Source: Kribbella monticola (GTDB lineage: Bacteria > Actinomycetota > Actinomycetes > Propionibacteriales > Kribbellaceae). Taken from it: a stretch of DNA of 64,000 nt. This document shows, piece after piece, positions 10,562-50,588 of this stretch (position 1 is the stretch's first letter; each line of letters starts with the position of its first letter). The notes beneath the pieces were generated by a model. That model was given only the letters and a program-made list of their open reading frames with translations. It was not told the origin of the DNA and did not search any database. The translations under genes and the position numbers were made by a program. The stretch lies in NCBI RefSeq assembly GCF_003261635.1, contig NZ_QFXK01000037.1:1-64000 (forward strand). Reading direction: 5' to 3'.

Positions 10562-11545
10562 TCAGTACTGCCGCGAGGGCAGCGCCGCCTTGGCGGCCGC
10601 TTGGTCGAACACCGTCTCCTTGGTCAGCACCCGCTCGGGCACCGACTCACCGGCCACGACCTTCTTCGCCAGGTCCATCAGTTGTGGGCCGAGCAGCGGG
10701 TTGCATTCGACGATGTAGTTGATCTTGCCGGCCGCGAGCGCGGTCATCCCGTCCTTCACCGCGTCGATGCTGATGATCTGGATGTCCTTGCCCGGCTTCA
10801 GACCGGCCGCCTCGATCGCCTCGATGGCGCCGAGCCCCATGTCGTCGTTGTGAGCGAACACCACGTCGATGTTCTTCTGCGACTTCAGGAACGACTCCAT
10901 CACCTTCTTGCCGCCGTCACGGGTGAAGTCACCGGTCTGCGAGGCCGCGATGGTGATCTTCGGGTTCGCCTTCATGGCGTCCTCGAAGCCCTTCTTGCGG
11001 TCGATGGCCGGCGCCGCGCCCGTCGTCCCCTGCAGCTCGACGACCTTGATGCTGCCGTCCTTGTTCAGGTCGGCGGCATCGCCTTCCTTGACCAGCCACT
11101 CGCCGGCCTTGGTGCCCTCGACAACGAAGTCGGAGCCGAGGAAGGTCTTGTACAGCGAGGTGTCCTTGGAGTCGACCGCACGGTCGGTGAGGATGACCGG
11201 GATGTTGGCCCGCTTGGCCTCCATCAGCACGGTGTCCCAGCCGGTCTCGACCACCGGCGAGAAGGCGATCACGTCCACCTTCTGCTGGATGAAGGACCGG
11301 ATCGACTTGATCTGGTTCTCCTGCTTCTGCTGGGCGTCGGAGAACTTCAGCTCGATCCCCGCCGTCTTGGCGGTCTCCTGGATCGACTTCGTGTTGGCCG
11401 TCCGCCAGCCACTCTCGGCGCCGACCTGGGCGAAGCCCATCGTGATGCTGTCGCTGGACGCACTCGGCTTGGGCTTGTCACCTCCGCAAGCCACCAGGCT
11501 GCCGGCGAGCACCAGGCTCGTCGCAACCGCCACCAGTCTCTTCAC
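10562..11545 (-). CDS. furanose-binding lipoprotein (YtfQ-like)
   Basis: A 327-residue extracellular solute-binding lipoprotein. The signal peptide ends at lipobox LVAC with Cys20. The mature part closely follows E. coli YtfQ as I remember it: GFAQVGAESGWR, QQKQENQIKSIRSF, TDRAVDSKDTSLY, VVELQGTTGAAPAIDRKKGF, SQTGDFTRDGGKKVMESF and AHNDDMGLGAIEAI. YtfQ binds galactofuranose, and L-arabinofuranose is a close structural mimic. Two AraR-type operators lie 47 and 91 bases upstream of the start. Arabinofuranose import is therefore the favoured role, by inference. Confidence 0.93.
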   Translation of the reverse strand: MKRLVAVATSLVLAGSLVACGGDKPKPSASSDSITMGFAQVGAESGWRTANTKSIQETAKTAGIELKFSDAQQKQENQIKSIRSFIQQKVDVIAFSPVVETGWDTVLMEAKRANIPVILTDRAVDSKDTSLYKTFLGSDFVVEGTKAGEWLVKEGDAADLNKDGSIKVVELQGTTGAAPAIDRKKGFEDAMKANPKITIAASQTGDFTRDGGKKVMESFLKSQKNIDVVFAHNDDMGLGAIEAIEAAGLKPGKDIQIISIDAVKDGMTALAAGKINYIVECNPLLGPQLMDLAKKVVAGESVPERVLTKETVFDQAAAKAALPSRQY

Positions 11546-11591: not shown

Positions 11592-11605
11592 TGTTAGCGT
11601 TAACT
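11592..11605. promoter_or_regulatory. AraR-type operator 1 of the furanose importer
   Basis: TGTTAGCGTTAACT, a near-palindrome around AGCGTT. It lies 47 bases upstream of the binding-protein start (11545, minus strand). It shares its core with sites at 11636, 37365, 38466 and 49374. Confidence 0.75.
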
Positions 11606-11635: not shown

Positions 11636-11649
11636 TGTTAGCGTTCACG
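11636..11649. promoter_or_regulatory. AraR-type operator 2 of the furanose importer
   Basis: TGTTAGCGTTCACG, centred 44 bases (about four helical turns) from operator 1, on the same face of the helix. The spacing would suit cooperative binding by one LacI-family protein. Confidence 0.75.
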
Positions 11650-37348: not shown

Positions 37349-37364
37349 GATTTTGCCGCTAGAG

Positions 37365-37378
37365 TGTTAGCGTTCACA
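37365..37378. promoter_or_regulatory. AraR-type operator of the arabinose regulator gene
   Basis: TGTTAGCGTTCACA, part of the near-palindrome GTGTTAGCGTTCACAC, 30 bases upstream of the LacI start. It is the best autoregulatory candidate of the regulon and matches the site at 38466 exactly on the opposite strand. Confidence 0.8.
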
Positions 37379-37408
37379 CTTATCAGGTCCGAGCGAGGAG
37401 AACGATTT

Positions 37409-38425
37409 ATGAGTGCGAGCGCGTCACGTCCGCCGGTGATGGCAGATGTGGCGCGAGTGGCCGGCGTTTCGCACCAGACGGTCTCCCGCGTCCTGAACAA
37501 TCTGCCGAACGTCCGGCCGAGCACCCGGGACCGGATCCTGCAGGCGATCGACGAGCTGGGCTACCGGCGCAACCTGACCGCCCGCGCCCTGGTCACCCGG
37601 CATTCCCGGGTGCTCGGCGTGGTCAGCTTCGACACCACCCTGTTCGGTCCGGCGAGCACGGTGCACGGCATCGAGCAGGCAGCCCGCGATGCCGGGTACT
37701 TCATCAGCATCGTGAGCCTCAAGGCGATCACCCGGGACAGCGTCGAGGACGCGATCCATCACCTCGCCGGTCAGGGCATCGACGGGATCGTCGTGGTGGC
37801 TCCGCAGCGGCAGGCGGCCCGTGCGTTGTCGAGCATCCCCGACGACATCCCGGCGGTTGCCGTCGAAGGTGGCCGGGCCCGGCGGGTGCCGGTCGTCAGC
37901 GTCGACCAGGTCGGTGGCGCGCGGCTCGCCGTACAGCATCTGCTCGAACTCGGTCACCAGACCGTCTGGCACATCGCCGGGCCGGAGGAGTGGCTCGAGG
38001 CCGAAGGACGGCTGAAGGGCTGGCAGGAGACGCTCGAGGCGGCCGGCCGGCCGGTACCTACGGCCATGACCGGCGACTGGAGTCCCCGGTCGGGGTACGA
38101 GGCCGGTCTGCGGCTGCCGTCGAGCGCGACGGCTGTCTTCGTGGCCAACGACCAGATGGCCCTCGGCCTGCTCCGGTCGCTGTCCGAACGCGGCGTGCGG
38201 GTCCCCGACGACGTCAGCGTGGTCGGGTTCGACGACGTACCCGAGGCCGAGTTCTTCAGTCCCCCGCTGACGACCGTGCGCCAGGACTTCACCCTGGTCG
38301 GCCGGTACAGCATCGAGCTGCTGCTCGAACAACTCGCCGAGGACCCGCCGGCCCGGCGGCGCCGCGTGGTCGTGCCCGCGACGCTGGTCCGGCGCCGCAG
38401 CACCGCCGCACCGGCCGGCGCCTGA
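37409..38425 (+). CDS. araR: LacI-family arabinose regulator
   Basis: A 338-residue repressor preceding araBDA. The helix-turn-helix is MADVARVAGVSHQTVSRVLNN near 12-32, then a hinge and periplasmic-binding-type core with GPEEWLEAEGRLKGW, GDWSPRSGYEAG and VGFDDVPEAEFFSPPLTTVRQ. GAGGAG lies eight bases before the ATG. Its own promoter and the araB start carry the same operator, so L-arabinose-responsive repression of araBDA is the natural reading. The symbol reflects role by analogy with the LacI-type AraR of corynebacteria; the Bacillus AraR is a different architecture. Paralog of the 5839 protein. Confidence 0.85.
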   Translation: MSASASRPPVMADVARVAGVSHQTVSRVLNNLPNVRPSTRDRILQAIDELGYRRNLTARALVTRHSRVLGVVSFDTTLFGPASTVHGIEQAARDAGYFISIVSLKAITRDSVEDAIHHLAGQGIDGIVVVAPQRQAARALSSIPDDIPAVAVEGGRARRVPVVSVDQVGGARLAVQHLLELGHQTVWHIAGPEEWLEAEGRLKGWQETLEAAGRPVPTAMTGDWSPRSGYEAGLRLPSSATAVFVANDQMALGLLRSLSERGVRVPDDVSVVGFDDVPEAEFFSPPLTTVRQDFTLVGRYSIELLLEQLAEDPPARRRRVVVPATLVRRRSTAAPAGA

Positions 38426-38465
38426 GACCATGCCCTTGACCACCACACGTACCGCTGGAGAGCAT

Positions 38466-38479
38466 TGTGAACGCTAACA
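38466..38479. promoter_or_regulatory. AraR-type operator across the araB start codon
   Basis: TGTGAACGCTAACA; the reverse complement TGTTAGCGTTCACA is identical to the 37365 site. The GTG start codon (38467) and codons 2-4 (Met-Asn-Ala-Asn) lie inside the operator, so the repressor would sit on the translation-start region. Confidence 0.8.
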
Positions 38480-40152
38480 GTCCTACTGAACCGGAGCCGG
38501 GGTTCGTCGTCGGCATCGACTTCGGCACCTTGTCGGGGCGCGCCGTCGTCGTCCGCGTCTCCGACGGCGAGGAGCTCGGCAGCGCGGTTCACGAGTACTC
38601 CCACGGCGTGATCGAGACCAGCCTGCCCGGCTCCGGCGTCCGGCTCGGCCCGAACTGGGCCCTGCAGTCGCCGACCGACTGGATCGACGTACTGCGCCGC
38701 GCGGTACCCAAGGCGCTCGCCGTCTCGGGTGTCGATCCCGCCGAGGTGATCGGCATCGGCACCGACTTCACCGCCTGCACCGTGCTCCCGACACTCGCTG
38801 ACGGCACGCCGCTGTGCGAGCTGGACGACCTCGCCGCCCGGCCACACAGCTGGCCGAAGCTCTGGAAGCATCACGCCGCCCAGCCGCATGCGGACCTCAT
38901 CAACGAGGTCGCCAGGCAGCGCGACGAACCGTGGCTCGGCCGGTACGGCGGCAAGATCTCCTCGGAGTGGGAGTTCGCCAAGGGGCTGCAGTTGCTGCAG
39001 GAGGACCCGGAGATCTACGCGCGGACCGAGCGGTGGATCGAGGCGGCCGACTGGATCGTCTGGCAGCTCACCGGCACCGAGTCCCGCAACGTCTGCACAG
39101 CCGGCTACAAGGGCATCAGGACCGAGCACGGCTACCCCTCGCGGGAGTACCTGACCGCGCTCGACCCCGCCTTCGGCGACTTCACCGACAAGCTCGCGAA
39201 CGAACTGCTGCCGCTCGGTGCGTCAGCCGGACGGCTCAGCGCCCAAGCGGCCGAGTGGACCGGACTCCCGGCCGGCATTGCCGTTGCCGCAGGCAACGTA
39301 GACGCCCACGTCACCGCCGCGGCCGCAGACGCCACCCGCCCCGGCCAGCTGGTAGCGATCATGGGTACCTCGACCTGCCACGTGATGTCGTCGGACCACC
39401 TCGCCGAGGTACCCGGGATGTGTGGCGTCGTCGACGGCGGCATCATCGACGGGCTCTGGGGCTACGAGGCCGGCCAGTCGGCGGTCGGCGACATCTTCGG
39501 CTGGTTCGTGGACACCTGCGTTCCCCCGGCGTACGTGGCCGAGGCGGAACGACGCGGCGTCTCCGTGCACAGCTATCTGGAAGAGCTCGCGGCCCAGCAG
39601 CCGGTCGGAGCCCACGGTCTGGTCGCGCTCGACTGGCACAACGGCAACCGGTCGGTGCTGGTCGACCACGACCTGTCCGCCGTGATCATCGGCCAGACGC
39701 TCGCGACGCGGCCGGAGGACACCTACCGCGCGCTGATCGAAGCCACCGCGTTCGGCACCCGCCGGATCGTCGAGGCCTTCGAGGAGACCGGCGTCGCGGT
39801 CGAGGAGTTCATCGTCGCGGGCGGCCTGCTGAAGAACCGCCTGCTGATGCAGATCTACTCCGACGTACTGCGCCGGCCGATCTCGGTCGTCAGCTCCGAG
39901 CAGGGCCCGGCCCTCGGGTCGGCCATCCATGCAGCCGTTGCCGCCGGCACCTATCCGGAGGTGCCGACGGCAGCGGCGTCGATGGGCCGGCGGATCGAGT
40001 CCGCCTACCAGCCTGACCAGGGCCGCGCCGACAGCTACGACCGGCTGTACGCCGAGTACCGCGGGCTGCACGACTGGTTCGCCGGCGAGGCGTACGGCGG
40101 CAACGGCGTACTGCACCGTCTTCACAAACTCAGGAACGAGGTAATCGGATGA
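38467..40152 (+). CDS. araB: L-ribulokinase
   Basis: A 561-residue FGGY-family kinase that phosphorylates L-ribulose with ATP. The N-terminal phosphate motif is [14 protein letters not shown] near 15-28 (the Asp-Phe-Gly-Thr block), with [25 protein letters not shown] in the adenosine region, and [20 protein letters not shown] near the C-terminus. Length fits ribulokinase rather than xylulokinase (about 480). GTG start with GGAG six bases upstream. The stop overlaps araD by four bases. The transcript runs araB-araD-araA. Confidence 0.96.
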
Positions 40153-40814
40153 CCTTGCCGCCCGCAGTCGCCGACCTGCGCGAGCAGGTCTGCGGCCTGC
40201 ACACCGAACTGGTCAGATACGGGCTCGTCGCCTGGACCGCCGGGAACATCTCCGGCCGGGTCCCCGGCGAGGACCTGTTCGTGATCAAGCCCAGCGGCAT
40301 CTCGTACGACGACCTCACGCCCGCCTCGATGGTCGTCTGCGACCTCGACGGCACCCTGGTCGACGGCGAGCTCGCGCCGTCCAGCGACACCGCCGCGCAC
40401 GCGTACGTCTACCGCTCCAGGCCCGACATCGGCGGCGTGGTGCACACCCATTCGCCGTACGCGACGGCCTGGGCCGCTCGCGACGAGCCGATCCCGTGCG
40501 TGCTGACCGCGATGGCCGACGAGTTCGGCGGCGACATCCCGGTCGGCCCGTTCGCCCTGATCGGCGACGACTCCATCGGCCAGGGCATCGTCGCCACGCT
40601 GGCCGAGTCCCGCTCGCCGGCGGTGCTGATGCGCAACCATGGCGTCTTCACCGTCGGCAAGGACGCCAAGGCGGCCGTCAAGGCAGCGGTCATGTGCGAG
40701 GACGTCGCCCGCACTGTCCACCTCGCCCGGTCCGGCGGCCCGCTCGTTCCCATCGACCCCGGCCACATCGACAGCCTCTACCACCGCTACCAGACCGTTT
40801 ACGGTCAGCGCTGA
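40149..40814 (+). CDS. araD: L-ribulose-5-phosphate 4-epimerase
   Basis: A 221-residue class II aldolase-fold enzyme converting L-ribulose 5-phosphate to D-xylulose 5-phosphate, the entry to the pentose phosphate pathway. TAGNISGR and [11 protein letters not shown] form the substrate loop, [27 protein letters not shown] supplies the zinc histidines near 85-105, and [23 protein letters not shown] is the C-terminal His region. The ATG overlaps the araB stop by four bases. Confidence 0.96.
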
Positions 40815-40828
40815 ACCCCGGAGCCCTC

Positions 40829-42334
40829 ATGAAAGCTTCCCGCCGACCCCAGCTCTGGTTCCTCACCGGGAGCCAGGGCCTCTACGGCCCCGAGACCCTC
40901 GACCAGGTCGCCGCCCAGTCGCAGCAGATCGTGACCGCGCTGAACGCCTCCGGCGACCTGCCCGCCGAGGTGGTGTGGTTCCCGGTCGTCACCGACGCCG
41001 CGGCGATCAAGAACACCATCCTGAAGGCGAACCTCGACGGCGAGTGCATCGGCGTGATCGCCTGGATGCACACCTTCTCGCCGGCCAAGATGTGGATCGC
41101 CGGCCTGGAGGCGCTCCAGCTGCCGCTGCTGCACCTGCACACCCAGGCGAACGTCGGCCTGCCCTGGGCCGAGATCGACATGGATTTCATGAACCTGAAC
41201 CAGGCCGCCCACGGCGACCGCGAGTTCGGCTTCATCCAGACCAGGCTGGGGATCCCGCGGACCACCGTCGCGGGGCATGTCAGCGACCCCTCGGTCACCG
41301 CGCGGATCGGCAGCTGGGCCCGGGCCGCGACCGGCCTGGCCGAGTTGCGCTCGATGAAGCTGGCCCGCTTCGGCGACAACATGCGCGACGTCGCCGTCAC
41401 CGAAGGCGACAAGGTCGAGGCACAACGCCGGTTCGGGGTCTCGGTCAACACCTACGCGGTGAACGACCTGGTCGCCGCGGTCGACGCCGTACCGGATGCG
41501 GACATCGACGCGCTCGTCAAGGAGTACGACGACACGTATCAGCTGGTCCCTGAGCTCCGGTCCGACGGCGAGCGACACGACTCGCTGCGCTATGCCGCGC
41601 GGCTGGAGGCCGGTATGCGGGCCTTTCTCGAGGCCGGCGACTTCACCGCTTTCACCACGAACTTCGAAGATCTGGGTGGGCTGCGCCAGCTACCAGGACT
41701 GGCCGTCCAGCGCTTGATGGCCGACGGCTACGGCTTCGGCGGTGAGGGCGACTGGAAGACCTCGGTGCTGCTCCGCACCCTCAAGGTCATCGCCGGCGAC
41801 CGGCCGGGTGGGACCTCGTTCATGGAGGACTACACCTACCACCTGGTTCCGGGCGAGGAGCTCATCCTCGGCGCGCACATGCTCGAGGTCTGCCCGAGTA
41901 TCGCGACCGGTACGCCGTCGATCGAGATCCACCCGCTCGGCATCGGCAACCGCGAGGACCCGGTCCGGATGGTGTTCGACGCCGCCCCGGGTGCCGGCCT
42001 GGTGGTCGGGATGGCCGACCTCGGCGAGCGGTTCCGGCTGATCGGCAACGAGATCGACGTGGTCGCTCCCGAGCAGCCGCTCCCCCGGCTCCCGGTCGCC
42101 CGGGCGGTCTGGAAGCCGCGGCCGGACTTCCGTACGTCGGCCGAGTCCTGGCTGACCGCGGGCGCCCCGCACCACACCGTGCTCTCCACGACGGTCACGT
42201 CGGAGGAGCTGGACGACCTCGCGACGATGCTCAAGACCGAACTGCTGATGATCGACGACAGCACCGACGTCCGCCACCTCCAGCAGGAGATCCGCTGGAA
42301 CCAGGTCTACCACCGCCTCGCCCTCGGCTTCTGA
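40829..42334 (+). CDS. araA: L-arabinose isomerase
   Basis: A 501-residue metal-dependent isomerase of L-arabinose and L-ribulose. [27 protein letters not shown] near 9-35 is the diagnostic start, [12 protein letters not shown] near 84-95, [49 protein letters not shown], and the metal-binding Glu/His blocks [10 protein letters not shown] and [15 protein letters not shown] precedes the ATG, 14 bases after araD. A strong bidirectional hairpin follows. Confidence 0.97.
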
Positions 42335-42355
42335 GCGCCGCGGGCGAAACCCTCT

Positions 42356-42391
42356 GAGCCGTAGCTGGACCGTCCGGTCCAGCTACGGCTC
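42356..42391. terminator. bidirectional terminator between araA and the TSUP gene
   Basis: A perfect 16-base stem GAGCCGTAGCTGGACC (42356-42371) and 42376-42391 with a GTCC loop. It serves araA on the plus strand, and on the minus strand overlaps the last bases of the TSUP stop codon (42390-42392). Confidence 0.85.
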
Positions 42392-43130
42392 ATGAGGTCA
42401 GGAGGCCCTTGACCAAGGTGGAGACGCCGCCGGCCAGGGCGAGCAGGAGGACGAGAAGCCGCGCGATCCGATCCGGCAGCCGACCGGCGAGTCCGCGGCC
42501 GATCAGGGCACCGGCGGACAGGCCGGCTGTCGCGGCGATCCAGCTGCCCGGGCGGAGCTGGGGCAGTCCGTTCGAGAGCACCGAGAAGATGTTCACCACA
42601 ACGCCGTAGAACAACGCGTTGGGGACGAACTCCCGAATCGTCCAGCCCGCGTTGACGGCGTACAAGGAGATCGGCGGGCCGCCGAGGCCGGCTGCTGCGT
42701 TCATGAAACCGCCGGCCGCGCCTGCGGTCAGCGCTCCGCCGAGACCATTCAGCGCTTGCACGCGAAGGCCGCTCATCACGAGTACTACGGCCGCGGTCAC
42801 CAGTGCGCCCATGCCGGCAAGCAGAACCGGCTCGGGCAGCTGGTTCGTCACCCAGCTCCCGAGCGGAACTGTGCACGCGGCGGCGAGCACCAGCGGGACC
42901 ATCGCTCGCAACCGGACGTTGACCCAGCCGCCGGTCAGCCCGACCAGGCAGATGACGCCCGATGCGCAGTTCGCCAAGGCCACCCCGTCACCAGGGCCGA
43001 GCAACAGGATCAGAGCCGGTACGGCGACCAGCGCGAAGCCCATCCCGGTCAGCCACTGCACCGACGCGCCCAGCATGACTACGCCGGCAAGGAGCACCTC
43101 CCCGGACCAGGCAACTCCGGCGGCGGACAT
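42390..43130 (-). CDS. TSUP-family membrane exporter (TauE/SafE)
   Basis: A 246-residue integral membrane protein with about seven to eight helices. LLAGVVMLGASVQWLTGMGFALVAVPALILLLGP near 14-46 is the first TauE/SafE repeat, and AGAAGGFMNAAAGLGGPPISLYAVN near 140-162 is the second. The family exports sulfite, sulfoacetate and other small organic anions. It is convergent with araA and divergent from the Gfo/Idh gene; a link to sugar-acid efflux is only conjecture. Confidence 0.88.
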   Translation of the reverse strand: MSAAGVAWSGEVLLAGVVMLGASVQWLTGMGFALVAVPALILLLGPGDGVALANCASGVICLVGLTGGWVNVRLRAMVPLVLAAACTVPLGSWVTNQLPEPVLLAGMGALVTAAVVLVMSGLRVQALNGLGGALTAGAAGGFMNAAAGLGGPPISLYAVNAGWTIREFVPNALFYGVVVNIFSVLSNGLPQLRPGSWIAATAGLSAGALIGRGLAGRLPDRIARLLVLLLALAGGVSTLVKGLLTS

Positions 43131-43239
43131 GCCCGAAGCCTAGACGGGCCTACCCGCAGGTGGACTGACCGGTTCCGGTCACTTGGCCGCTCTCCCTTGC
43201 GTTCCACGAAGGCCCCGACCAAGATCTGCGGAGTTGCTT

Positions 43240-43253
43240 GGAAAAGGCTTTCC
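43240..43253. promoter_or_regulatory. LacI-like palindrome before the Gfo/Idh gene
   Basis: GGAAAAGGCTTTCC: arms GGAAA and TTTCC around AGGC, 21 bases upstream of the ATG at 43275. The arms resemble the outer halves of the 49509 operator, but the centre differs. Confidence 0.4.
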
Positions 43254-43274
43254 GTCACTCTCTGGAAGGTATGG

Positions 43275-44363
43275 ATGTCCGAAACCATTCGTCGCGTCGC
43301 GATCGTCGGGACCGGTGGGATCGCCACCGCGCATGCTCAGGCAGTCGCGGCCCAACCGGGGCGTGCGCGGCTGGTGGCAGCGGTCGACGTCGACCTCGGG
43401 CGGGCCGAAGCGTTCGCCAAGACCTGGGACGTCCCGGCGGCGTACCCGAGTCTGACCGCGCTGCTCGCCGCCGGCGAGGTCGACCTGGTCCTGCTGTGTA
43501 CCCCGCCCGGATCCCACGTACCGCTGGCTGCCGAATGTCTGGCGGCCGGCGTGGATGTCCTGGTGGAGAAGCCGCCGACCCTGTCACTGAACGAGCTGGA
43601 CGAACTCATCGAACTCGAGAGCCGTTCCACCGCCCGAGTGATCTGCGTCTTCCAGCATCGCTTCGGATCGGGTGCCGTGCGGCTGCGCCGGCTGGCCGCG
43701 GACGGTCTCCTCGGCCGGCCGCTCGTCGCCACCTGCCACACCCTCTGGTACCGCGACGACGCGTACTTCGCCGTACCGTGGCGAGGCACCTTCGAGATCG
43801 AGGGTGGTGGCCCGACGATGGGCCACGGGATCCACCAGTTCGACCTGCTGCTGTCGATCCTCGGTCCGTGGGAGCAGGTCACCGCGGTCGCGGCCCGGCA
43901 GGCCCGGCCCACCCAGACCGAGGACGTCTCGCTGGCCCTGGTCACCTTCGCCAACGGCGCCGTCGCCTCGATCGTCAACTCACTGGTATCAGCTCGCGAA
44001 ACCTCGACGCTGCGGTTCGACTATGAGCACGCGACCGTCGAACTCGAGCACCTCTACGGCTACAGCGACGCCGACTGGATCGTGACGCCGGCACCCGGCC
44101 ACGAAGCCGTCGCTGACGCATGGTCGGCCGACGCAGCAGACATCCCGAGCGGTCACAGCGCGCAGTTCGCGGCGGTCCTGGATGCGAAGGACGCGGGCCG
44201 GCCGGCTCCGGTGTCGCTGCAGGATGCGAGAGACACCACGGAACTGATCGCCGCGATCTACGCGTCCGCTTTCACCGGAAAGCCCGTACGACGAGGCGAG
44301 CTCGACCCGGCGAATCCTTTCAGCGTTCGCATGGACGGGACGGGTGCTCCGTGGGCTACTTGA
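43275..44363 (+). CDS. Gfo/Idh/MocA-family sugar dehydrogenase
   Basis: A 362-residue NAD(P)-dependent oxidoreductase of sugars or inositols. The Rossmann start is VAIVGTGGIATAHAQAV near 8-24, VLLCTPPGSHVPLAAECLAAGVDVLVEKPPTLSL contains the family EKP near 99-101, and GHGIHQFDLLLSILGPW near 182-198 carries the catalytic His. GGAAG precedes the ATG. It lies convergent to the importer operon ending at 44356 and overlaps it by eight bases. Substrate unassigned. Confidence 0.88.
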   Translation: MSETIRRVAIVGTGGIATAHAQAVAAQPGRARLVAAVDVDLGRAEAFAKTWDVPAAYPSLTALLAAGEVDLVLLCTPPGSHVPLAAECLAAGVDVLVEKPPTLSLNELDELIELESRSTARVICVFQHRFGSGAVRLRRLAADGLLGRPLVATCHTLWYRDDAYFAVPWRGTFEIEGGGPTMGHGIHQFDLLLSILGPWEQVTAVAARQARPTQTEDVSLALVTFANGAVASIVNSLVSARETSTLRFDYEHATVELEHLYGYSDADWIVTPAPGHEAVADAWSADAADIPSGHSAQFAAVLDAKDAGRPAPVSLQDARDTTELIAAIYASAFTGKPVRRGELDPANPFSVRMDGTGAPWAT

Positions 44364-45213
44364 CCGCGCCGGCCACCAGGCCCGCCACGTAGTACCGCTG
44401 GAGCAGTAGGTAGAGCACGATGCAGGGGATGGCGGTGACCGCGACGCCGGCCTGCATCAGGCCCCAGTTCAGCGTGCCCAGTTGGTTGGAGGCGAGCACG
44501 GTCAACGTCACCGGCAGCGTGAACTTGGACTCGTCGGTGACCAGGATCAGGGCCGCGAAGAACTCGTTCCAGGACGCGAAGAACGTGAACAACGCAGTAC
44601 TGATCAGGCCGGGGATTGCCACCGGCAACAAAACCCGGGCCATCGCGCTGACCAGACCGCAGCCGTCGACCAGCGCCGCTTCCTCGATACTGGCCGGCAC
44701 GGACGCGAAACTGTTGCGCATCAGGAAGATCCCGAACGGCAACTGGAACGTCGTGTAGACCAGCGTCAGCCCCAGCAGAGTGTCGCTCAGGCCCATGTCG
44801 TGCAGGATCGAGAACAGCGGCGTGATGATGGCCTGGAACGGGATCATGAAGGTCGCCAGGATGATGAAGAAGAGCACCCCGCTGCCCCGGAACCGCAACT
44901 TCGCGAAGCCGTAGCCGGCCAGCGTCGCGAGCAGCATCGTCAGCAGGGTCGTCCCCGCGGCCACCAGCAAGCTGTTGCTGACGTGCTGCCAGATGCCGAA
45001 CTGCCCGGTGTTGCCGAGCGCCCGGTAGTTCTCCAGCGACAGGCCGTGCGGGTAGAGCGTCGGTGGATTCTCCGTCGCCTCGCTGGGCTTCTTCAGCGAC
45101 TGCGAGACCATGACCGCCAGCGGATAGAGGACGAGGACGGAGACGCACACGCAGGCGATCCACCAGGCGGCCCGGGGCAGCGTACTGCGTACGTCGGCGA
45201 GCGTTGTTTTCAT
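44356..45213 (-). CDS. CUT1 sugar ABC permease (MalG-like)
   Basis: A 285-residue permease with six helices. EAA loop ASIEEAALVDGCGLVSAMARVLLPVAIPG near 180-208. The ATG at 45213 overlaps the upstream permease stop by four bases. It is last gene of the GH127 operon. Confidence 0.92.
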   Translation of the reverse strand: MKTTLADVRSTLPRAAWWIACVCVSVLVLYPLAVMVSQSLKKPSEATENPPTLYPHGLSLENYRALGNTGQFGIWQHVSNSLLVAAGTTLLTMLLATLAGYGFAKLRFRGSGVLFFIILATFMIPFQAIITPLFSILHDMGLSDTLLGLTLVYTTFQLPFGIFLMRNSFASVPASIEEAALVDGCGLVSAMARVLLPVAIPGLISTALFTFFASWNEFFAALILVTDESKFTLPVTLTVLASNQLGTLNWGLMQAGVAVTAIPCIVLYLLLQRYYVAGLVAGAVK

Positions 45214-46163
45214 GAGTGGTCCGAATTCCGCAGGAGCAGCATCTGCACGGCGCTGACCGCCGCGAGCGCCACCATCAGGATGGCCGACAACGCGGCGCCG
45301 TAGCCGAGGTCGAAGTTGATGAACGAGGTGCGGTAGATCTGGTAGACGGCGGTGATCGTGCCGTTGGACGGCCCACCCGCGGTCATGATGTAGAACTGGT
45401 CGAACGCCAGCAGCGAACCGGCCACGGAGAACACCAGGACCAGGGCCAGTGTCGGGCGCAGCAACGGCAAAGTCACGTGCAGGAAGGCTTTCCAGCGACT
45501 CGCGCCGTCGATCCGCGCCGCCTCGGTCAGCTCCCCCGGAATGGCTTGCATGCCCGACAGCAGGAGCAGCATCTGCATGCCGGTGACCTTCCATACCACC
45601 ATCGCAGTCACCACGAGCAGGCCGCTGGTGGCAGTGGCGAACCAGTTCGTGTCGCGACCGGCGAGTCCGAACCGGGCGGCCAGATCCGCCAGCGGACCGA
45701 GGCCCGGCTGCGCGAGGTACAGCCAGAGGAAGGCACCGGCCGCGAACCCGATCACGACCGGCAGGAAGAAGATCGACTGGAACACCCGGGCCGCCCGGCC
45801 GCCGCGATGAACGAGGAACGCGACAGCCAGGCCTGCGACGAGCAGGATCGGCGTGATGAGCACCGTGTAGGTCAAGGTGAACCGGATCGCGTGCAGCCAG
45901 TCGGTGTCGTGGATCGCCCGGCGGTAGTTGGCCAGCCCGGTGAAGCTGTGGTCACCGAGCAGCGGCCAGTCGTGCAGCGACATCCAGAACGTCATCACGA
46001 GCGGGACGAGGAAGAACACGGTGACGACCACCAGGGCCGGCGACACCATCGCCATCCCCATCAACTGGCGACGTCGGCGGGTGGACAGCCAGGGCCGGCG
46101 AGGCTCGGCCGCTCTGGCGACCGGTCGGCTCGGCGCCACCGGTGGGCTGATGGTCTTGGTCAT
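45210..46163 (-). CDS. CUT1 sugar ABC permease (MalF-like)
   Basis: A 317-residue permease with a basic 30-residue N-terminus, first helix GMAMVSPALVVVTVFFLVPLV, and EAA loop IPGELTEAARIDGASRWKAFLHVTLPLLRPT near 220-250. The ATG at 46163 has GGAGG five bases upstream. It follows the binding-protein gene by 13 bases. Confidence 0.92.
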   Translation of the reverse strand: MTKTISPPVAPSRPVARAAEPRRPWLSTRRRRQLMGMAMVSPALVVVTVFFLVPLVMTFWMSLHDWPLLGDHSFTGLANYRRAIHDTDWLHAIRFTLTYTVLITPILLVAGLAVAFLVHRGGRAARVFQSIFFLPVVIGFAAGAFLWLYLAQPGLGPLADLAARFGLAGRDTNWFATATSGLLVVTAMVVWKVTGMQMLLLLSGMQAIPGELTEAARIDGASRWKAFLHVTLPLLRPTLALVLVFSVAGSLLAFDQFYIMTAGGPSNGTITAVYQIYRTSFINFDLGYGAALSAILMVALAAVSAVQMLLLRNSDHS

Positions 46164-46176
46164 GAGGCCTCCGCGC

Positions 46177-47451
46177 TCAGCCCTTGTCGATGATCTGCTG
46201 AGCGGCCGTCTGCGCCGCCGACTGGGCACTCTTGACGTCACCGGTGCCGAACACCGCCTGGTTGATCAGCTTCGACCACGGGCCGTTGTTGTCGTTGATG
46301 ATCGCGTTCTCGACCACGCTGTACGGCGTCTGCCCGACCGCCATCGCCTGCCCGAGGACCTTGTACCGCGGGTCGAGCGGCGCGTAGATCTTGTCGATCA
46401 GGTCCGTCCGGACCGGGACGATCGCGTTCTTGGCCAGGATCGTCTGAGCCTCTTCGCTGGTGGCCCACTTGACGAAGTCGTACGCGACCGCCTTGTTCTT
46501 GGCGCCTTTCGTGACAGCGATCTCGTCACCACCGGCGAAGGAGGCCGAGCCGCCGTCCTTGCCGACGATGGGAGTGGCGCCGAAGTCGATCTTCTTGTCC
46601 GCCACCAGCGTCTGCACGAAGAAGGCGCCGAGGTTCACCATGCCGACCTTGCCGCTTTGGAACGAGGCCGGTTGCACGCTGCCGTTGTCGGTCTTCGCCG
46701 ATGGCGGCATCAACCCTTCGGTCCACAGCTGGCGGTAGAAGGTGAGCGCATCGGTCACCTCCGAACTGTCGAAGGCCGCGCTCTTCCCGTCGTCGGACAG
46801 CACCTTGCCGCCGCTGGCCCACACATGCGGGGCGAACTCGAAGATGTTGCAGCCACCGCACTGCCCGGCCATCGTGAAGCCGTAGTAGTCGGGGCCGAGC
46901 TTACGGATCGCCCGTGCGTCGGCCAGCATCTCGGCAAAGTTCTTCGGCGACTTGGCGGGGTCGAGACCCGCCTTCTTGAACAGATCCTTGTTGTAGAAGG
47001 TGACCGACGCCTCCGCGGTGAACGGCAGCGCGTAGGTCTTGCCCTCGAAGACGGCCAGCTTCTTGTGCGCCGGGCTGAGTCCGTTCTTCCAGCTCAGCGA
47101 GTCGAGCACCGGCGTGAGATCGTCGAGCACGCCCTTGGACGCGAAGTAGGGCAGGTACACCAGGTCGATCGAGGCGATGTCGGGCCCCGAGCCCGAGGCC
47201 GCCGCCGTACCGAATTTCTGGACGAAGTTCGCCGACGGTACGACGGTGACCTTCACCTTGCCCTCATGGGTCTTGTTGTACTGCTCGGAGAGCAGGTTGA
47301 TGAATCCCTTCGCGCTGTCGCGCACCCACAGCGTCGCGGTACCGGTCGGTTTGTCGGTCGCGGCCGACTTCTGGTCTCCGCCACCGCCACCGCATCCCGC
47401 GAGCAGGAGTGCGAGAGCGCCGGCGGCTGCTACGAGTCTCGTAGATCTCAT
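46177..47451 (-). CDS. CUT1 sugar-binding lipoprotein
   Basis: A 424-residue extracellular solute-binding protein. Signal peptide with lipobox LAGC near Cys20, then a polyglycine linker. TATLWVRDSAKGFINLLSEQYNK begins the mature domain, and YALPFTAEASVTFYNKDLFKKAGLDPAKSPKN is the family-1 core. It follows GH127 by 42 bases in the same operon, so the ligand is probably a beta-L-arabinofuranoside such as beta-arabinobiose, which GH127 would then split in the cytoplasm (inference). Confidence 0.92.
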   Translation of the reverse strand: MRSTRLVAAAGALALLLAGCGGGGGDQKSAATDKPTGTATLWVRDSAKGFINLLSEQYNKTHEGKVKVTVVPSANFVQKFGTAAASGSGPDIASIDLVYLPYFASKGVLDDLTPVLDSLSWKNGLSPAHKKLAVFEGKTYALPFTAEASVTFYNKDLFKKAGLDPAKSPKNFAEMLADARAIRKLGPDYYGFTMAGQCGGCNIFEFAPHVWASGGKVLSDDGKSAAFDSSEVTDALTFYRQLWTEGLMPPSAKTDNGSVQPASFQSGKVGMVNLGAFFVQTLVADKKIDFGATPIVGKDGGSASFAGGDEIAVTKGAKNKAVAYDFVKWATSEEAQTILAKNAIVPVRTDLIDKIYAPLDPRYKVLGQAMAVGQTPYSVVENAIINDNNGPWSKLINQAVFGTGDVKSAQSAAQTAAQQIIDKG

Positions 47452-47493
47452 GACGACTTCACTTTCTGCTCGCGGTAGCCGCGAGCGGGGATC

Positions 47494-49386
47494 TCAGGCG
47501 AGCGGGAGCCAGACCCGCATGGCACCGGGGCCGCGGTTGGCCCAGGCCTGGTACGGGACAGCGGTGACGATGATCGGAGTGCCGGTCGAGGAAGTCGATG
47601 CGTAGGGCTGGTACAACGCTGCGTCGAGCGGGCTCACCAGGGCTGACAAGCGGAGCCGGACACCGTCCGGGCCGGGCTCCTCGACGATGGTTGCCGAGGG
47701 CTCCAATCGCAGCTGCTCGACCAGGATCCCTTCGGGCAGGTCGGCCTGCTCCACGCAGTAAACGATGGGTCCGCGTTCGATTGCCACACAGCCGCGTACT
47801 GCGTCGACGCGGTCGTCGGCGCGCACGAGTCGCGGGGTCATCGGCAGCGTGAGCCGTACCGTGGCGCCGTCGTCGCAGGAGACCCGCAGGTAGTCGCCCG
47901 GGATCGGCTCGGCCAGTACCTTCCCCTCGGTCACGTCGACGGTGGCGCCCGCGGCCCAATTCGGCACCCGGATCGCGAGCTCGCCGCGACCTCTGACGGT
48001 CACCATCACGTCCCCGTCCCACGGGTAGCCGGTCTCCACGACGGCTGTCAGGTTCCCCGCGGTAAAGGTGCCTGCGGCAACGAGATGCAACTGCAGGCAG
48101 GTCGCGTCGGAGGTGGCCGCGTAGCCGTGCAAGGACGCGTACAGCCGGGCAAGGTTCGGTGGGCAGCAAGCGCAGTCGTACCACGGGAGGCGCTCGCTCG
48201 GAGCGTCCTCGCTGGAGCCGTCGTGGCCGGTCCGCAGTTGCAGCGGGTTGGAGTAGAAGAACGCGGTGCCGTCGTGCGCTATCGATGCCGCGATGGCGTT
48301 GAGCAACGCACGTTCCATCTCCTCGGCGTACCGGGCCTGGCCGGTGGCAAGGAGCATCCGCCAACACCATTGCAGGGCGGCGATCGAGGCGCACGTTTCG
48401 GCGTACGCGCGGTCCGGCGGCAGCTCGTACGGATCTCCGTATGCCTCGTCGCGGTGGCGGGAACCGTGGCCGCCGGTGAGGTACATCTTGGTGCCGAACG
48501 CGCTGTCCCACAGCTGCTCCATCGCTTGGAGCAGCGTTTGATCGCCGTTCTCGAGGTACAGGTCGGTGACTCCCGCGGCCAGGTACAGCTGCCGAACGGA
48601 GTGCCCGATGGCCTCGGTCGCCTCGCGGACGGGCAGGTGATCCTGGTAGTACTGAGACCCGAATCGCCCGGCCGGCAGGCTGCCGTGGCCGCGCCGCTCG
48701 ACCTGGAGTTCGGCCGCATGCAGGTAGGACTCCTCCCCCGTCTCGCGGTAGAGCTCGATCAGGGCCGTCTCGACCTCGGGATGCCCGTCGATGATCGGCC
48801 GGCCGTCATCGCCGAACGCGGTCACGATCAGGTCGGCCACCCGCCGTGCGATCGCGAGGAAGCGCTCGTCACCACCGCCACGGTGCAGTGCCACGGCGGC
48901 CTGCATGAGGTGGCCGGCGCAGTAGAACTCGTGGGTGAACTCGGGGTGGCTGAACGGCTCCTCGTCCGGCTTCCCTTGAACATAGGTGTTGAGGTAGCCG
49001 TCCGCCTTCTGCACCTGCTCCAGCAGGTCGGCCAGCTCGGACAGCATCGGCACCCACCGGTCGGTGCCCGAGCGGCCCATCTCCCAGCCGATCGCTTCCA
49101 GCGTCTTGTAGAGATCGGAGTCGGCGAACCAGAACCCCCGGAAGTCCTGCTGCGGATGTTCCTCGGTCAGGCGGCGGAAGTTCGCGATGACGCCGGTGCG
49201 ATCGACGTTGTCCACGCAGTGCGGAATCGTGGCCGTGGCGTTGAGCTCCTGCCAGCCGCCGAGCAGGGACGCGGGATCCAGTCGTACCGCGCTCAACGCC
49301 AACGGCTCGAGCTGCGGCCGCCGTCGCGGCGCGGCCGGGCCAGGGATCTGGGTACGGGCCGGGGCAGTACGAATGTGAGCGTTCAC
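47494..49386 (-). CDS. GH127 beta-L-arabinofuranosidase
   Basis: A 630-residue cytoplasmic enzyme releasing L-arabinose from beta-L-arabinofuranosides. GH127 uses a zinc-bound cysteine nucleophile; here Glu330 and Cys332 in YAETCASIA and Cys407/Cys408 in DCACCPPNLARL match the Glu338/Cys340/Cys417/Cys418 set of the Bifidobacterium enzyme HypBA1. The alpha/alpha barrel start FRGFWFADSDLYKTLEAIG and C-terminal beta domains are present. GTG start with GAGAGG seven bases upstream; an operator covers the first four codons. It leads an operon with its own importer. Confidence 0.93.
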   Translation of the reverse strand: MNAHIRTAPARTQIPGPAAPRRRPQLEPLALSAVRLDPASLLGGWQELNATATIPHCVDNVDRTGVIANFRRLTEEHPQQDFRGFWFADSDLYKTLEAIGWEMGRSGTDRWVPMLSELADLLEQVQKADGYLNTYVQGKPDEEPFSHPEFTHEFYCAGHLMQAAVALHRGGGDERFLAIARRVADLIVTAFGDDGRPIIDGHPEVETALIELYRETGEESYLHAAELQVERRGHGSLPAGRFGSQYYQDHLPVREATEAIGHSVRQLYLAAGVTDLYLENGDQTLLQAMEQLWDSAFGTKMYLTGGHGSRHRDEAYGDPYELPPDRAYAETCASIAALQWCWRMLLATGQARYAEEMERALLNAIAASIAHDGTAFFYSNPLQLRTGHDGSSEDAPSERLPWYDCACCPPNLARLYASLHGYAATSDATCLQLHLVAAGTFTAGNLTAVVETGYPWDGDVMVTVRGRGELAIRVPNWAAGATVDVTEGKVLAEPIPGDYLRVSCDDGATVRLTLPMTPRLVRADDRVDAVRGCVAIERGPIVYCVEQADLPEGILVEQLRLEPSATIVEEPGPDGVRLRLSALVSPLDAALYQPYASTSSTGTPIIVTAVPYQAWANRGPGAMRVWLPLA

Positions 49387-49387
49387 A
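49374..49387. promoter_or_regulatory. AraR-type operator across the GH127 start codon
   Basis: TGTGAGCGTTCACA within the near-palindrome AATGTGAGCGTTCACATT (49372-49389). The GH127 GTG start and codons 2-4 (Met-Asn-Ala-His) are inside it, in the same register as at araB. Confidence 0.8.
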
Positions 49388-49431: not shown

Positions 49432-49447
49432 GAGAAAATTGTTTCCC
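49432..49447. promoter_or_regulatory. LacI operator, module F (site 1)
   Basis: GAGAAAATTGTTTCCC, an imperfect palindrome 46 bases upstream of the GH127 start. It resembles the 49509 site read in reverse. Confidence 0.65.
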
Positions 49448-49508
49448 GCCGGTCAACATAGAACTCCCGCCTGGTCCCGTCAAGACCCGGTCCAGCCGGT
49501 GTACCGTG

Positions 49509-49526
49509 TGGGAAAATCTTTTCTCA
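49509..49526. promoter_or_regulatory. LacI operator, module F (site 2)
   Basis: TGGGAAAATCTTTTCTCA, eight-base arms with one mismatch, 43 bases upstream of the LacI start at 49569. Good candidate for autoregulation. Confidence 0.7.
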
Positions 49527-49568
49527 CCGATCACCGCCCGCTACGCGCACAGAGCAGGAACGGCACCC

Positions 49569-50588
49569 ATGACTGACGAAACCGCCCCTCGGGCCACCAC
49601 CGCGCGCCGGGTCGGCATCGCAGATGTCGCCGCCCGGGCCGGGGTCTCCGTGGGCACCGTGTCGAAGGCGCTCAACGGCAGCGGCCGGCTTCGCGACGAG
49701 ACCCGCGCCCGGGTCCGAGCAGTCGCCGACGAACTCGGCTTCACCCCGATCAGCGTCGCGCGCAGCCTGCTGGCAGGGCGCACCTTCACCGTCGGCATCA
49801 TCACCACCGACAGCTACGGCCGGTTCGGGATCCCGGTGATGCGCGGCGCCGAGGACTCGCTCGCGGCCGGCGAGATGATCGCGTTCCTGTGCGACGGCCG
49901 CGACGATCCGATCCGCGAGCAGCACCACCTGGGCAAGCTCCTCGAGCGGCGGGTCGACGGCATCATCGTCGCGGGCCGTCGTACCGATCCGCGCCGCCCG
50001 ATCGGCGCCGACCTGCCCGTTCCCGTGGTCTACGCCTTCGCGCCGAGCAGTGATCCGGCCGACTGCAGCGTCGTGAGCGACGAACGCGGTGCGGCCCAGC
50101 TCGCGGTGGAGCACCTCGTCAAGACCGGCCGCCGCCGCATCGCGCACATCACCGGTCCGCAGTCCCACGCCTCGGCCAACGAACGCGCGGCCGGCCTGGC
50201 CGACGCGCTCGCCGCCCACGACCTGGAACTGGTCGGTGATCCGTACTTCGGCAGCTGGACCGAGGCATGGGGGCGCTTCGCGGCGGCCCAACTCCTGCGT
50301 ACACACGAAGATGTCGACGGTGTGTTCTGCGGGAGCGACGTGATCGCCCGCGGCGTCACCGACGGACTGCGCGAGGCCGGCCTTTCCTTGCCCACGCAGG
50401 TCGGCGTCGTCGGCGTCGACAACTGGGGACTGGTCGCGGAGGCCGCCCGCCCACCGCTCACCACGGTCGACCTCGGCCTGGAGGAGATCGGCCGGCTGTC
50501 GGCCGAGCTCCTCCTCGACGCCATCAACGGCCACGCCCAGCCGGGTGTCCACGTCGTCCCCGGCCACCTGGTGGTGCGCGAGTCCTGA
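49569..50588 (+). CDS. LacI-family regulator of module F
   Basis: A 339-residue repressor. Helix-turn-helix VGIADVAARAGVSVGTVSKALNG near 15-37, hinge and sugar-binding core with RFAAAQLLRTHEDVDGVFCGSDVIARG and VVGVDNWGLVAEAARPPLTTVDLGLEEIGR. Divergent from the GH127 operon. Two related palindromes lie between them. Together with the arabinose-type operator at GH127 this implies dual control of that operon. Confidence 0.92.
   Translation: MTDETAPRATTARRVGIADVAARAGVSVGTVSKALNGSGRLRDETRARVRAVADELGFTPISVARSLLAGRTFTVGIITTDSYGRFGIPVMRGAEDSLAAGEMIAFLCDGRDDPIREQHHLGKLLERRVDGIIVAGRRTDPRRPIGADLPVPVVYAFAPSSDPADCSVVSDERGAAQLAVEHLVKTGRRRIAHITGPQSHASANERAAGLADALAAHDLELVGDPYFGSWTEAWGRFAAAQLLRTHEDVDGVFCGSDVIARGVTDGLREAGLSLPTQVGVVGVDNWGLVAEAARPPLTTVDLGLEEIGRLSAELLLDAINGHAQPGVHVVPGHLVVRES

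Follow-up and report, generated by a model that had tools for sequence, protein, structure and literature searches.

In a 64,000-nucleotide stretch of the Kribbella monticola genome (assembly GCF_003261635.1, contig NZ_QFXK01000037.1, positions 1 to 64,000 of the forward strand; hereafter the window), two genes begin inside a predicted operator of a LacI-family regulator. The first operator, TGTGAACGCTAACA, contains the GTG start (38467) of araB, which encodes an FGGY-family ribulokinase, and supplies its codons 1-4, Met-Asn-Ala-Asn; the second, TGTGAACGCTCACA on the minus strand, contains the GTG start (49386) of a gene for a GH127 beta-L-arabinofuranosidase and supplies Met-Asn-Ala-His (coordinates of all features are given in Table 1). 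At both genes, the operator spans positions -1 to +13 and covers the GTG together with codons 2-4. Coordinates and translations agree with an earlier reading of the same DNA (the original prediction), according to which each operator starts one base before the GTG and supplies codons 1-4, and its statement that the two gene families are unrelated is borne out by their Pfam domains (PF02782 and PF00370 for the FGGY kinase, PF07944 for GH127). Two of its details needed correction: the araB site, described there as a palindrome, is an asymmetric operator and not a perfect palindrome, and a third predicted operator, TGTTAGCGTTCACA, located 30 nt 5' of the probable ATG of araR, had been missed. The long araR open reading frame (ORF; 37364-38425) contains the domains PF00356 and PF13377, and the kinase, class II aldolase and arabinose isomerase genes come next, so that a LacI-family regulator gene is linked to araBDA in the window, as in AraQ/AraR-type regulons. 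The end of araR is 41 nt away from the araB GTG.

Judged by their reading frames, both GTG starts are firm. Within the first 40 codons, the GTG is the sole in-frame ATG or GTG of either gene, and the next in-frame TTG is codon 22 in araB and codon 29 in GH127. An in-frame stop lies 30 nt 5' of the araB GTG with no start codon in between, and the GH127 frame likewise holds no further start between its upstream stop and the GTG. A GGAG or GAGAGG resembling a ribosome-binding site stands a few bases 5' of both starts and is seen again in relatives.

The operator motif leaves one register

Within the window, we found 13 operator matches at seven distinct places with at most two mismatches (palindromic matches being counted on both strands), against a mean of 1.5 in shuffled sequence, and none of 100 shuffles reached 13. 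In the window's genome (8.03 Mb), the exact form TGTKARCGYTMACA occupies six distinct places, two of which are the start codons of araB and GH127, and its reversed control none; ten Kribbella genomes gave 42 distinct places and no control match.

Read at offset 1 (T-GTG-ARC-GYT-MAC-A), all 16 operator variants are free of stop codons, compared with four at offset 0 and eight at offset 2, and the GTG at offset 1 is the sole start codon anywhere inside the motif. Therefore, any gene that starts inside the operator, or carries any operator variant in frame, reads Met/Val-(Asn/Ser)-(Ala/Val)-(Asn/His). Because there is a single always-open frame and a single GTG start, the register shared by araB and GH127 requires neither copying nor selection, which explains why fusions of operator and start occur in a single register. 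The original prediction had taken the matching register as selected or as copied with the promoter; this view finds no support, since the motif alone dictates the register and the flanks differ in relatives. A promoter-start cassette copied between the two genes was likewise rejected, as the flanks, which are alike in the window with TACTG following the operator, show no such likeness in G037 and G017 (genomes and loci are cited by our G and L numbers).

DNA and peptide constraint on codons 2 to 4

For the analysis of constraint, we used 29 operator-keeping genes chosen by operator match (at most one mismatch to the relaxed consensus), a selection that itself limits the changes seen inside the operator and has to be held against what follows. 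In these genes, codon 2 is AAC or AGC, codon 3 is GCT, GTT or GAT, and codon 4 is AAC or CAC. On the tree, codons 2, 3 and 4 underwent 6, 3 and 2 codon changes, respectively, and all 11 were amino acid changes at degenerate operator positions; in the control, comprising 60 codons from the conserved Asp onward, 131 of 417 codon changes altered the amino acid. The base preceding codon 1 changed twice, and the ten bases 3' of the operator changed 5-10 times each, so that conservation stops at the operator edge. Codon 3 ends in T in all 29 genes. GCT accounts for 25 of 25 Ala-3 codons in operator genes versus 55 of 2154 Ala codons (2.6%) in gene bodies, and the Ala-3 codons of operator-less genes are GCC and GCG (two cases). 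Also to be held against a constraint at the DNA level is one silent change in codon 1, from GTG to GTT, seen in L018 and L020, two genes with their start further upstream.

Because all 11 codon changes are amino acid changes that the operator tolerates, while those in the controls are mostly silent, DNA binding rather than the peptide seems to fix the araB N terminus, as had originally been proposed. Orthologues with the same N-terminal residues and no conserved palindrome, named at the time as evidence to the contrary, were found only in part and only among genes that have lost the operator: L016 and L117 read Met-Ser-Ala-Asp, with GCC and GCG as codon 3, and L016 has an operator 27 nt 5' of its start. 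The araB start would thus represent a clean natural case in which a regulatory DNA site dictates protein sequence, and changes in codons 2-4 that all alter the amino acid are the reverse of the usual coding constraint. That the two enzymes themselves require Met-(Asn/Ser)-Ala-(Asn/His), with the palindrome as a by-product, could be argued from the presence of these residues in two unrelated genes; we give this idea hardly any credence, given that operator-keeping genes have Val or Asp in place of Ala and Ser or His in place of Asn, that codons 2-4 show no synonymous change, and that araB of the other Kribbella lineage lacks this peptide, its start being near the FGGY domain.

The inverted repeat might also act at the RNA level, by folding in the mRNA and hiding the start codon. 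On its own, the 14-mer of GH127 gives a fold of -3.2 kcal/mol, a value reached by 2 of 200 shuffles. The araB 14-mer, however, has no stable fold (0 kcal/mol), and a hairpin was rejected for this gene; moreover, the 61-nt start regions of seven genes gave z-scores of -0.85 to 1.17, and the commonest operator form in the araB clade is the asymmetric one, whose G at position 4 and A at position 11 break the pairing. Control by RNA folding is therefore very improbable.

Conservation within Kribbella

A search of 38 genomes found araB at 67% identity or more in 21; the others yielded only weak kinase matches of about 25-33%. Eight of the ten araB genes of the close group, the window's included, carry the operator in frame, either over the GTG start (G000, G037, G017, G007 and G008) or in codons 5-8, in the same frame and behind an ATG (G004, G005 and G001). 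In G030 and G031, the operator lies at -27 and -73 from the aligned araB start, respectively, and the start region no longer matches. In the remaining 11 Kribbella araB genes, the extra peptide is absent and the operator is found 5' of an ATG.

An intact araR is found 5' of araB in G000, G037, G017, G008 and G005, with 67-100% identity to that of the window, and in these five genomes an operator before araR accompanies the in-frame araB operator. The same holds for G007, where araR appears to be broken: in this genome (L015), the gene is about 60 residues short and has a frame change, with both operators kept, which could be an assembly error. In the other Kribbella lineage, a regulator of 46-47% identity lies 5' of araB, and no operator was seen before it.

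The start-codon operator beyond the genus

Among the best 80 of 583 named araB loci, 13 carry the operator on the GTG start. Ten of these operators are exact (L101, L102, L103, L105, L106, L107, L109, L114, L115 and L125), L119 and L135 have one mismatch, and L122 has two (one under the relaxed consensus); the 13 loci come from Nonomuraea, Planobispora, Sphaerisporangium, Microbispora, Planotetraspora and Jiangella. Another joining of operator and start was seen in Streptacidiphilus (L172), where the last base of the operator is the A of the araB ATG.

We also applied a gene-blind screen to 394 Actinomycetes, looking for GGAG with the operator's TGTG form behind it, a search that is blind to other ribosome-binding sites. 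It returned 30 sites in 24 genomes, 13 of which are araB starts from three family codes, the window's among them. Of the 17 non-araB sites, L180 (LacI family) is ambiguous and the other 16 have no convincing gene start. At L180, a start at the operator's GTG is readable, but an ATG 12 codons on looks likelier; L197 was dismissed as a further Met-Asn-Ala-His start, its site lying between araR and a sugar-binding protein gene and its frame running antisense into araR.

A tree of 113 araB proteins (quick search, with support from the Shimodaira-Hasegawa-like approximate likelihood ratio test, SH-aLRT) contains one branch (SH-aLRT 96) of 37 rows that unites Streptosporangiaceae, the close Kribbella group, G139 and Actinomadura. 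An in-frame operator is present in 32 of the 37 rows, L014 (G017) counted in, and in 29 of 33 after removal of near-duplicates (L100, identical to L020; L205 and L208, at zero branch length to L107 and L102; and L149, at 0.035 from L147 and likewise without the operator). The label 'coding' changes nine times on the tree versus 31.5 times in shuffles, none of 500 shuffles being as low; for this test, L014 was labeled 'upstream', its extension reaching beyond the scanned length, and four doubtful rows were included. By rule, L113, L121, L146 and L172 count as having an in-frame operator, yet their start codon lies downstream of it. Since these changes are far fewer than in shuffles, the arrangement at the araB start codon is, on the evidence of the tree, old in the clade, and it probably moved from family to family together with araB. 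L119 and L181 fall outside the clade and seem to be independent instances. The Kribbella loci L012-L032 fall into two distant araB lineages, one of which groups with Streptosporangiaceae; the arabinose operon and its operator layout may therefore have been transferred horizontally.

Promoter context and operon layout

The in-frame araB sites mostly lack the -35 box at a fixed short distance that marks promoter operators. Scoring matches of at least 5/6 to TTGACA located 4-14 nt 5' of the operator, we found one at just 2 of the 31 in-frame araB sites, of which 28 lie on the start and three in codons 5-8. By contrast, nine of the 12 operators that precede araR have such a match, as do all 11 promoter operators of araB in the other Kribbella lineage, in each case at 7-8 nt. 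Upstream araB sites in other genera have a match in 29 of 52 cases (a count that leaves out L113, L121, L146 and L172 and the Kribbella loci L100, L171 and L178), and random positions in 93 of 6200. The best -35 match at the window's araB site is 4/6, and the GH127 site lies outside this count. These figures bear on the possibility that the block falls on initiation, with a promoter in the short gap or in the end of the upstream gene, transcription beginning just 5' of the ribosome-binding site, and the operator overlapping the RNA polymerase footprint. Three Nonomuraea loci (L114, L115 and L125) share the stretch GGTAGATGAT before the gap and L202 has TTGACC 10 nt 5' of the operator, both of which would fit such a promoter; with a -35-like box near just 2 of the 31 sites, and with the 12 nt 5' of the operator variable among the compared genes save for the ribosome-binding site, we nevertheless consider a block of initiation unlikely.

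At each of the 13 loci (of 80) with a start-codon operator, a frame running in the same direction precedes araB, and in 11 of them its stop lies 37-72 nt before the GTG. Where araR precedes araB, the distance from the stop to the conserved Asp is 68-108 nt with a start-codon operator (n = 6) versus a median of 187 nt with an upstream operator (n = 28; L113 left out; Mann-Whitney p 0.0003, kinship not corrected for). Where araB has no operator, this distance is 23-38 nt in four of five cases.

Eight longer stretches were read for operon layout, most genes there being named by eye. In G344, G053, G188 and G252, a promoter operator is followed by araR, a second operator (with a mismatch in G252), genes for a sugar-binding protein and an ATP-binding cassette (ABC) ATPase, and then the araB-start operator; in G344, a family search confirmed domains of the LacI, sugar-binding and ABC kinds, and 44 nt separate the end of a frame from araB. 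G127 has a promoter operator, araR, and an araB-start operator 20 nt past the araR stop, and G352 has one unit of araR with two operators and another of transporter genes, araR and the araB-start operator. Thus, in the readable cases the start-codon operator usually sits at an internal boundary of the gene row. A rule that it needs an adjacent araR was abandoned, as an ABC-permease-like frame, named from its last residues, precedes araB in seven loci (L101, L102, L103, L105, L106, L107 and L109). Five loci (L229, L230, L231, L232 and L233) have a further AraR-type operator between araR and the sugar-binding gene, none of the five with a 5-of-6 -35 match, suggesting that there may be more than one internal operator per operon.

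With two operators per row, AraR could also bridge the sites in front of araR and on the araB start, the latter serving as an auxiliary operator as in lac and gal. Operators paired in this way are spaced by 919-1135 bp in six Kribbella genomes, one of which (G008) contains an additional operator, and also occur in Streptosporangiaceae-type genomes and in G127. However, the distances vary, reaching about 6 kb across transporter genes, and the Pfam hit in AraR ends at residue 347 of 353 (long ORF), which would leave little room for a lac-type tetramer helix. A regulator ending directly after its sugar-binding domain would point to a dimer and speak against looping, which we regard as improbable to about the same degree as a block of initiation.

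A putative roadblock at the araB start

Because a ribosome-binding site and a start codon must be transcribed, the operators of araB and GH127 lie in transcribed DNA and, going by the position of the starts, 3' of the promoter. The best explanation, to which we assign a probability of roughly 0.6, is that an operon-internal AraR operator on the araB start blocks the elongating RNA polymerase. The 14-bp sites would be operators of the LacI-family, AraQ-like AraR, and the first catabolic gene, araB, would carry its site within the operon, over the start codon. In the absence of arabinose, bound AraR would halt RNA polymerase arriving from a promoter before araR (in relatives, before araR and the transporter genes), and regulator and transporter would be kept at a basal level while araBDA stays off; when arabinose is present, every operator would be released. 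At GH127, the AraR site is located downstream of a region with another LacI-type palindrome, and AraR may serve there as a second check; the TTGAC box and the GGGAAA-type palindrome 5' of GH127 are also near the divergent LacI gene. The original prediction had allowed for a block of either elongation or initiation at the start codon; we infer a block at the gene start from the position of the sites, with AraR as the probable ligand. It is tempting to speculate that autoregulated operons of this kind form a class of valves, in which selection keeps the operator on the start codon, one repressor grading a single transcript of regulator, transporter and enzymes by internal roadblocks, with the reading frame adapting to the operator, an extension that we regard as possible, if rather doubtful.

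Several observations weigh against an elongation roadblock. The three operators before araR that lack a 5/6 match to the -35 box, those of the window, G037 and G017, reach just 4/6, so that the araR promoter is not proven in these genomes and, in the window, departs from the consensus type; araB could be served by an unseen promoter within the last part of araR. The upstream stop is more distant in L107 (105 nt) and L109 (123 nt), which leaves room for a promoter. No match to araR was found 5' of araB in G004 and G001; the stretch of G124 begins inside a transporter gene, and the araB-start operator is the only one seen there; and in G139 a further operator is found at a distance of 1.2 kb upstream, no araR being called in the interval. 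Within the araB clade, five of 37 rows (four of 33, namely L117, L021, L016 and L147) are without the operator. The gene-blind screen missed the window's GH127, and a control screen for the operator form without GTG beside GGAG gave 35 rows in 28 of 394 genomes. Because this count is similar, the number of Shine-Dalgarno-plus-operator sites was discarded as evidence, which lies instead in the identity of the genes at the sites. Finally, just three of eight close GH127 orthologues (G000, G037 and G017) have the start-codon operator: G031 and G007 keep GTGAA with the operator centre lost, in G030 a site precedes the aligned start by 46 nt, and no operator was found at GH127 in G004 and G001. Among GH127 relatives outside Kribbella (394-genome sample, at most 61% identical), no start-codon operator was present in the 13 starts inspected of 19 found.

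Other features of the window

Besides the two start-codon operators, the window contains the remaining arabinose genes, a second LacI-type system next to GH127 and two further AraR-type sites (Table 1). The Pfam domains of araA begin only at residue 119 of its frame, so that the true start should lie 3' of the frame's first GTG. Palindromes of the GGGAAA/TTTTCTC type are located at 49432-49447 and 49510-49525, between GH127 and the divergent LacI-family gene; the former is a probable site of the divergent regulator, and both are likely its operators. Stretches resembling these palindromes are also seen 5' of GH127 in G037 and G017. The protein encoded at 10562-11545 (minus strand) resembles the binding proteins behind araR in Streptosporangiaceae-type operons. 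On contig C82 of the window's genome (L001:1478-1514), tandem operators TGTGATCGCTAACA and TGTGAACGCTAACA lie 23 bp apart between two reading frames.

Table 1. Arabinose-related genes and predicted regulatory sites in the 64,000-nt window
Feature	Position	Strand	Basis
AraR-type operator, 1 mismatch, 5' of sugar-binding protein gene 10562-11545 (-)	11592..11605		
Second AraR-type operator, 1 mismatch, same sugar-binding gene region, 44 bp off	11636..11649		
AraR-type operator TGTTAGCGTTCACA 5' of probable araR start; probable autoregulatory O1	37365..37378		
araR, LacI-family regulator, AraQ-like by site and linkage; probable ATG 37409	37409..38425	+	
Shine-Dalgarno-like GGAG of araB, common in relatives	38457..38460	+	Sequence
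AraR-type operator TGTGAACGCTAACA, fused to araB codons 1-4	38466..38479	+	Sequence, relatives
araB, FGGY-family ribulokinase, GTG start	38467..40152	+	Pfam PF02782, PF00370
Class II aldolase family gene, called araD from its position behind araB	40149..40814	+	
Open frame with araA, L-arabinose isomerase	40496..42334	+	Pfam domains from residue 119
GH127 beta-L-arabinofuranosidase gene, GTG start	47494..49386	-	Pfam PF07944
AraR-type operator TGTGAACGCTCACA, fused to GH127 codons 1-4	49374..49387	-	Sequence, relatives
Second LacI-type palindrome (GGGAAA/TTTTCTC), GH127 upstream region, beside TTGAC box	49432..49447		
Second LacI-family regulator frame, divergent from GH127	49506..50588	+	

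Comparison with known systems

Our literature search (start-codon and roadblock operators, AraQ in Streptosporangium), whose coverage excluded most subscription journals, found no report of this arrangement. The closest regulon is that of AraQ from Bifidobacterium breve, which binds DNA with the core TGTGAGCGCTCACA (PMC6882875). Of the 14 bases, TGTGAACGCTCACA differs from this core in one and TGTGAACGCTAACA in two, and the central CG is present. With the AraQ regulon, the Kribbella system shares a near-identical operator core, the target operon araBDA and a LacI-family regulator (PMC5928203, PMC6882875), and predicted araQ orthologues linked to araBDA are given for Arthrobacter, Geodermatophilus and Stackebrandtia (PMC5928203). 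It differs in the location of the site: AraQ sites are described around promoters, and the available portions of these papers mention none on the araB start codon (PMC5928203, PMC6882875), although the search range from -350 to +50 of the start means that start-codon sites could have been seen (PMC5928203).

Operators of the LacI family inside genes have precedents in the LacI site in lacZ and the PurR site in purB (cited in PMC4052901), which likewise lie in transcribed and translated DNA but inside the coding region and not over the start codon (PMC4052901). According to the same survey, less than 1% of LacI-family sites are in coding regions and more than 75% are 30-140 bp upstream (PMC4052901), and a predicted operator on a start codon is at odds with the habit of seeking LacI-family operators at promoters. 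As for the mechanism, LacI at O3 is reported to limit its own gene by a roadblock (PMC3711431), and LacI roadblocks in Escherichia coli inhibit elongation up to 25-fold in vivo (PMC4132739). The proposed role of AraR resembles these cases in that a LacI-family protein would halt an elongating polymerase, and differs in that the E. coli roadblocks are experimental (PMC3711431, PMC4132739), whereas that in Kribbella is deduced from position alone. The arrangement also offers a ready test system for roadblock regulation within an operon. A further likeness is found in the controller protein C.Kpn2I, whose site is located in its own reading frame near the 5' end of the ORF and acts as an elongation roadblock (PMC6237814).

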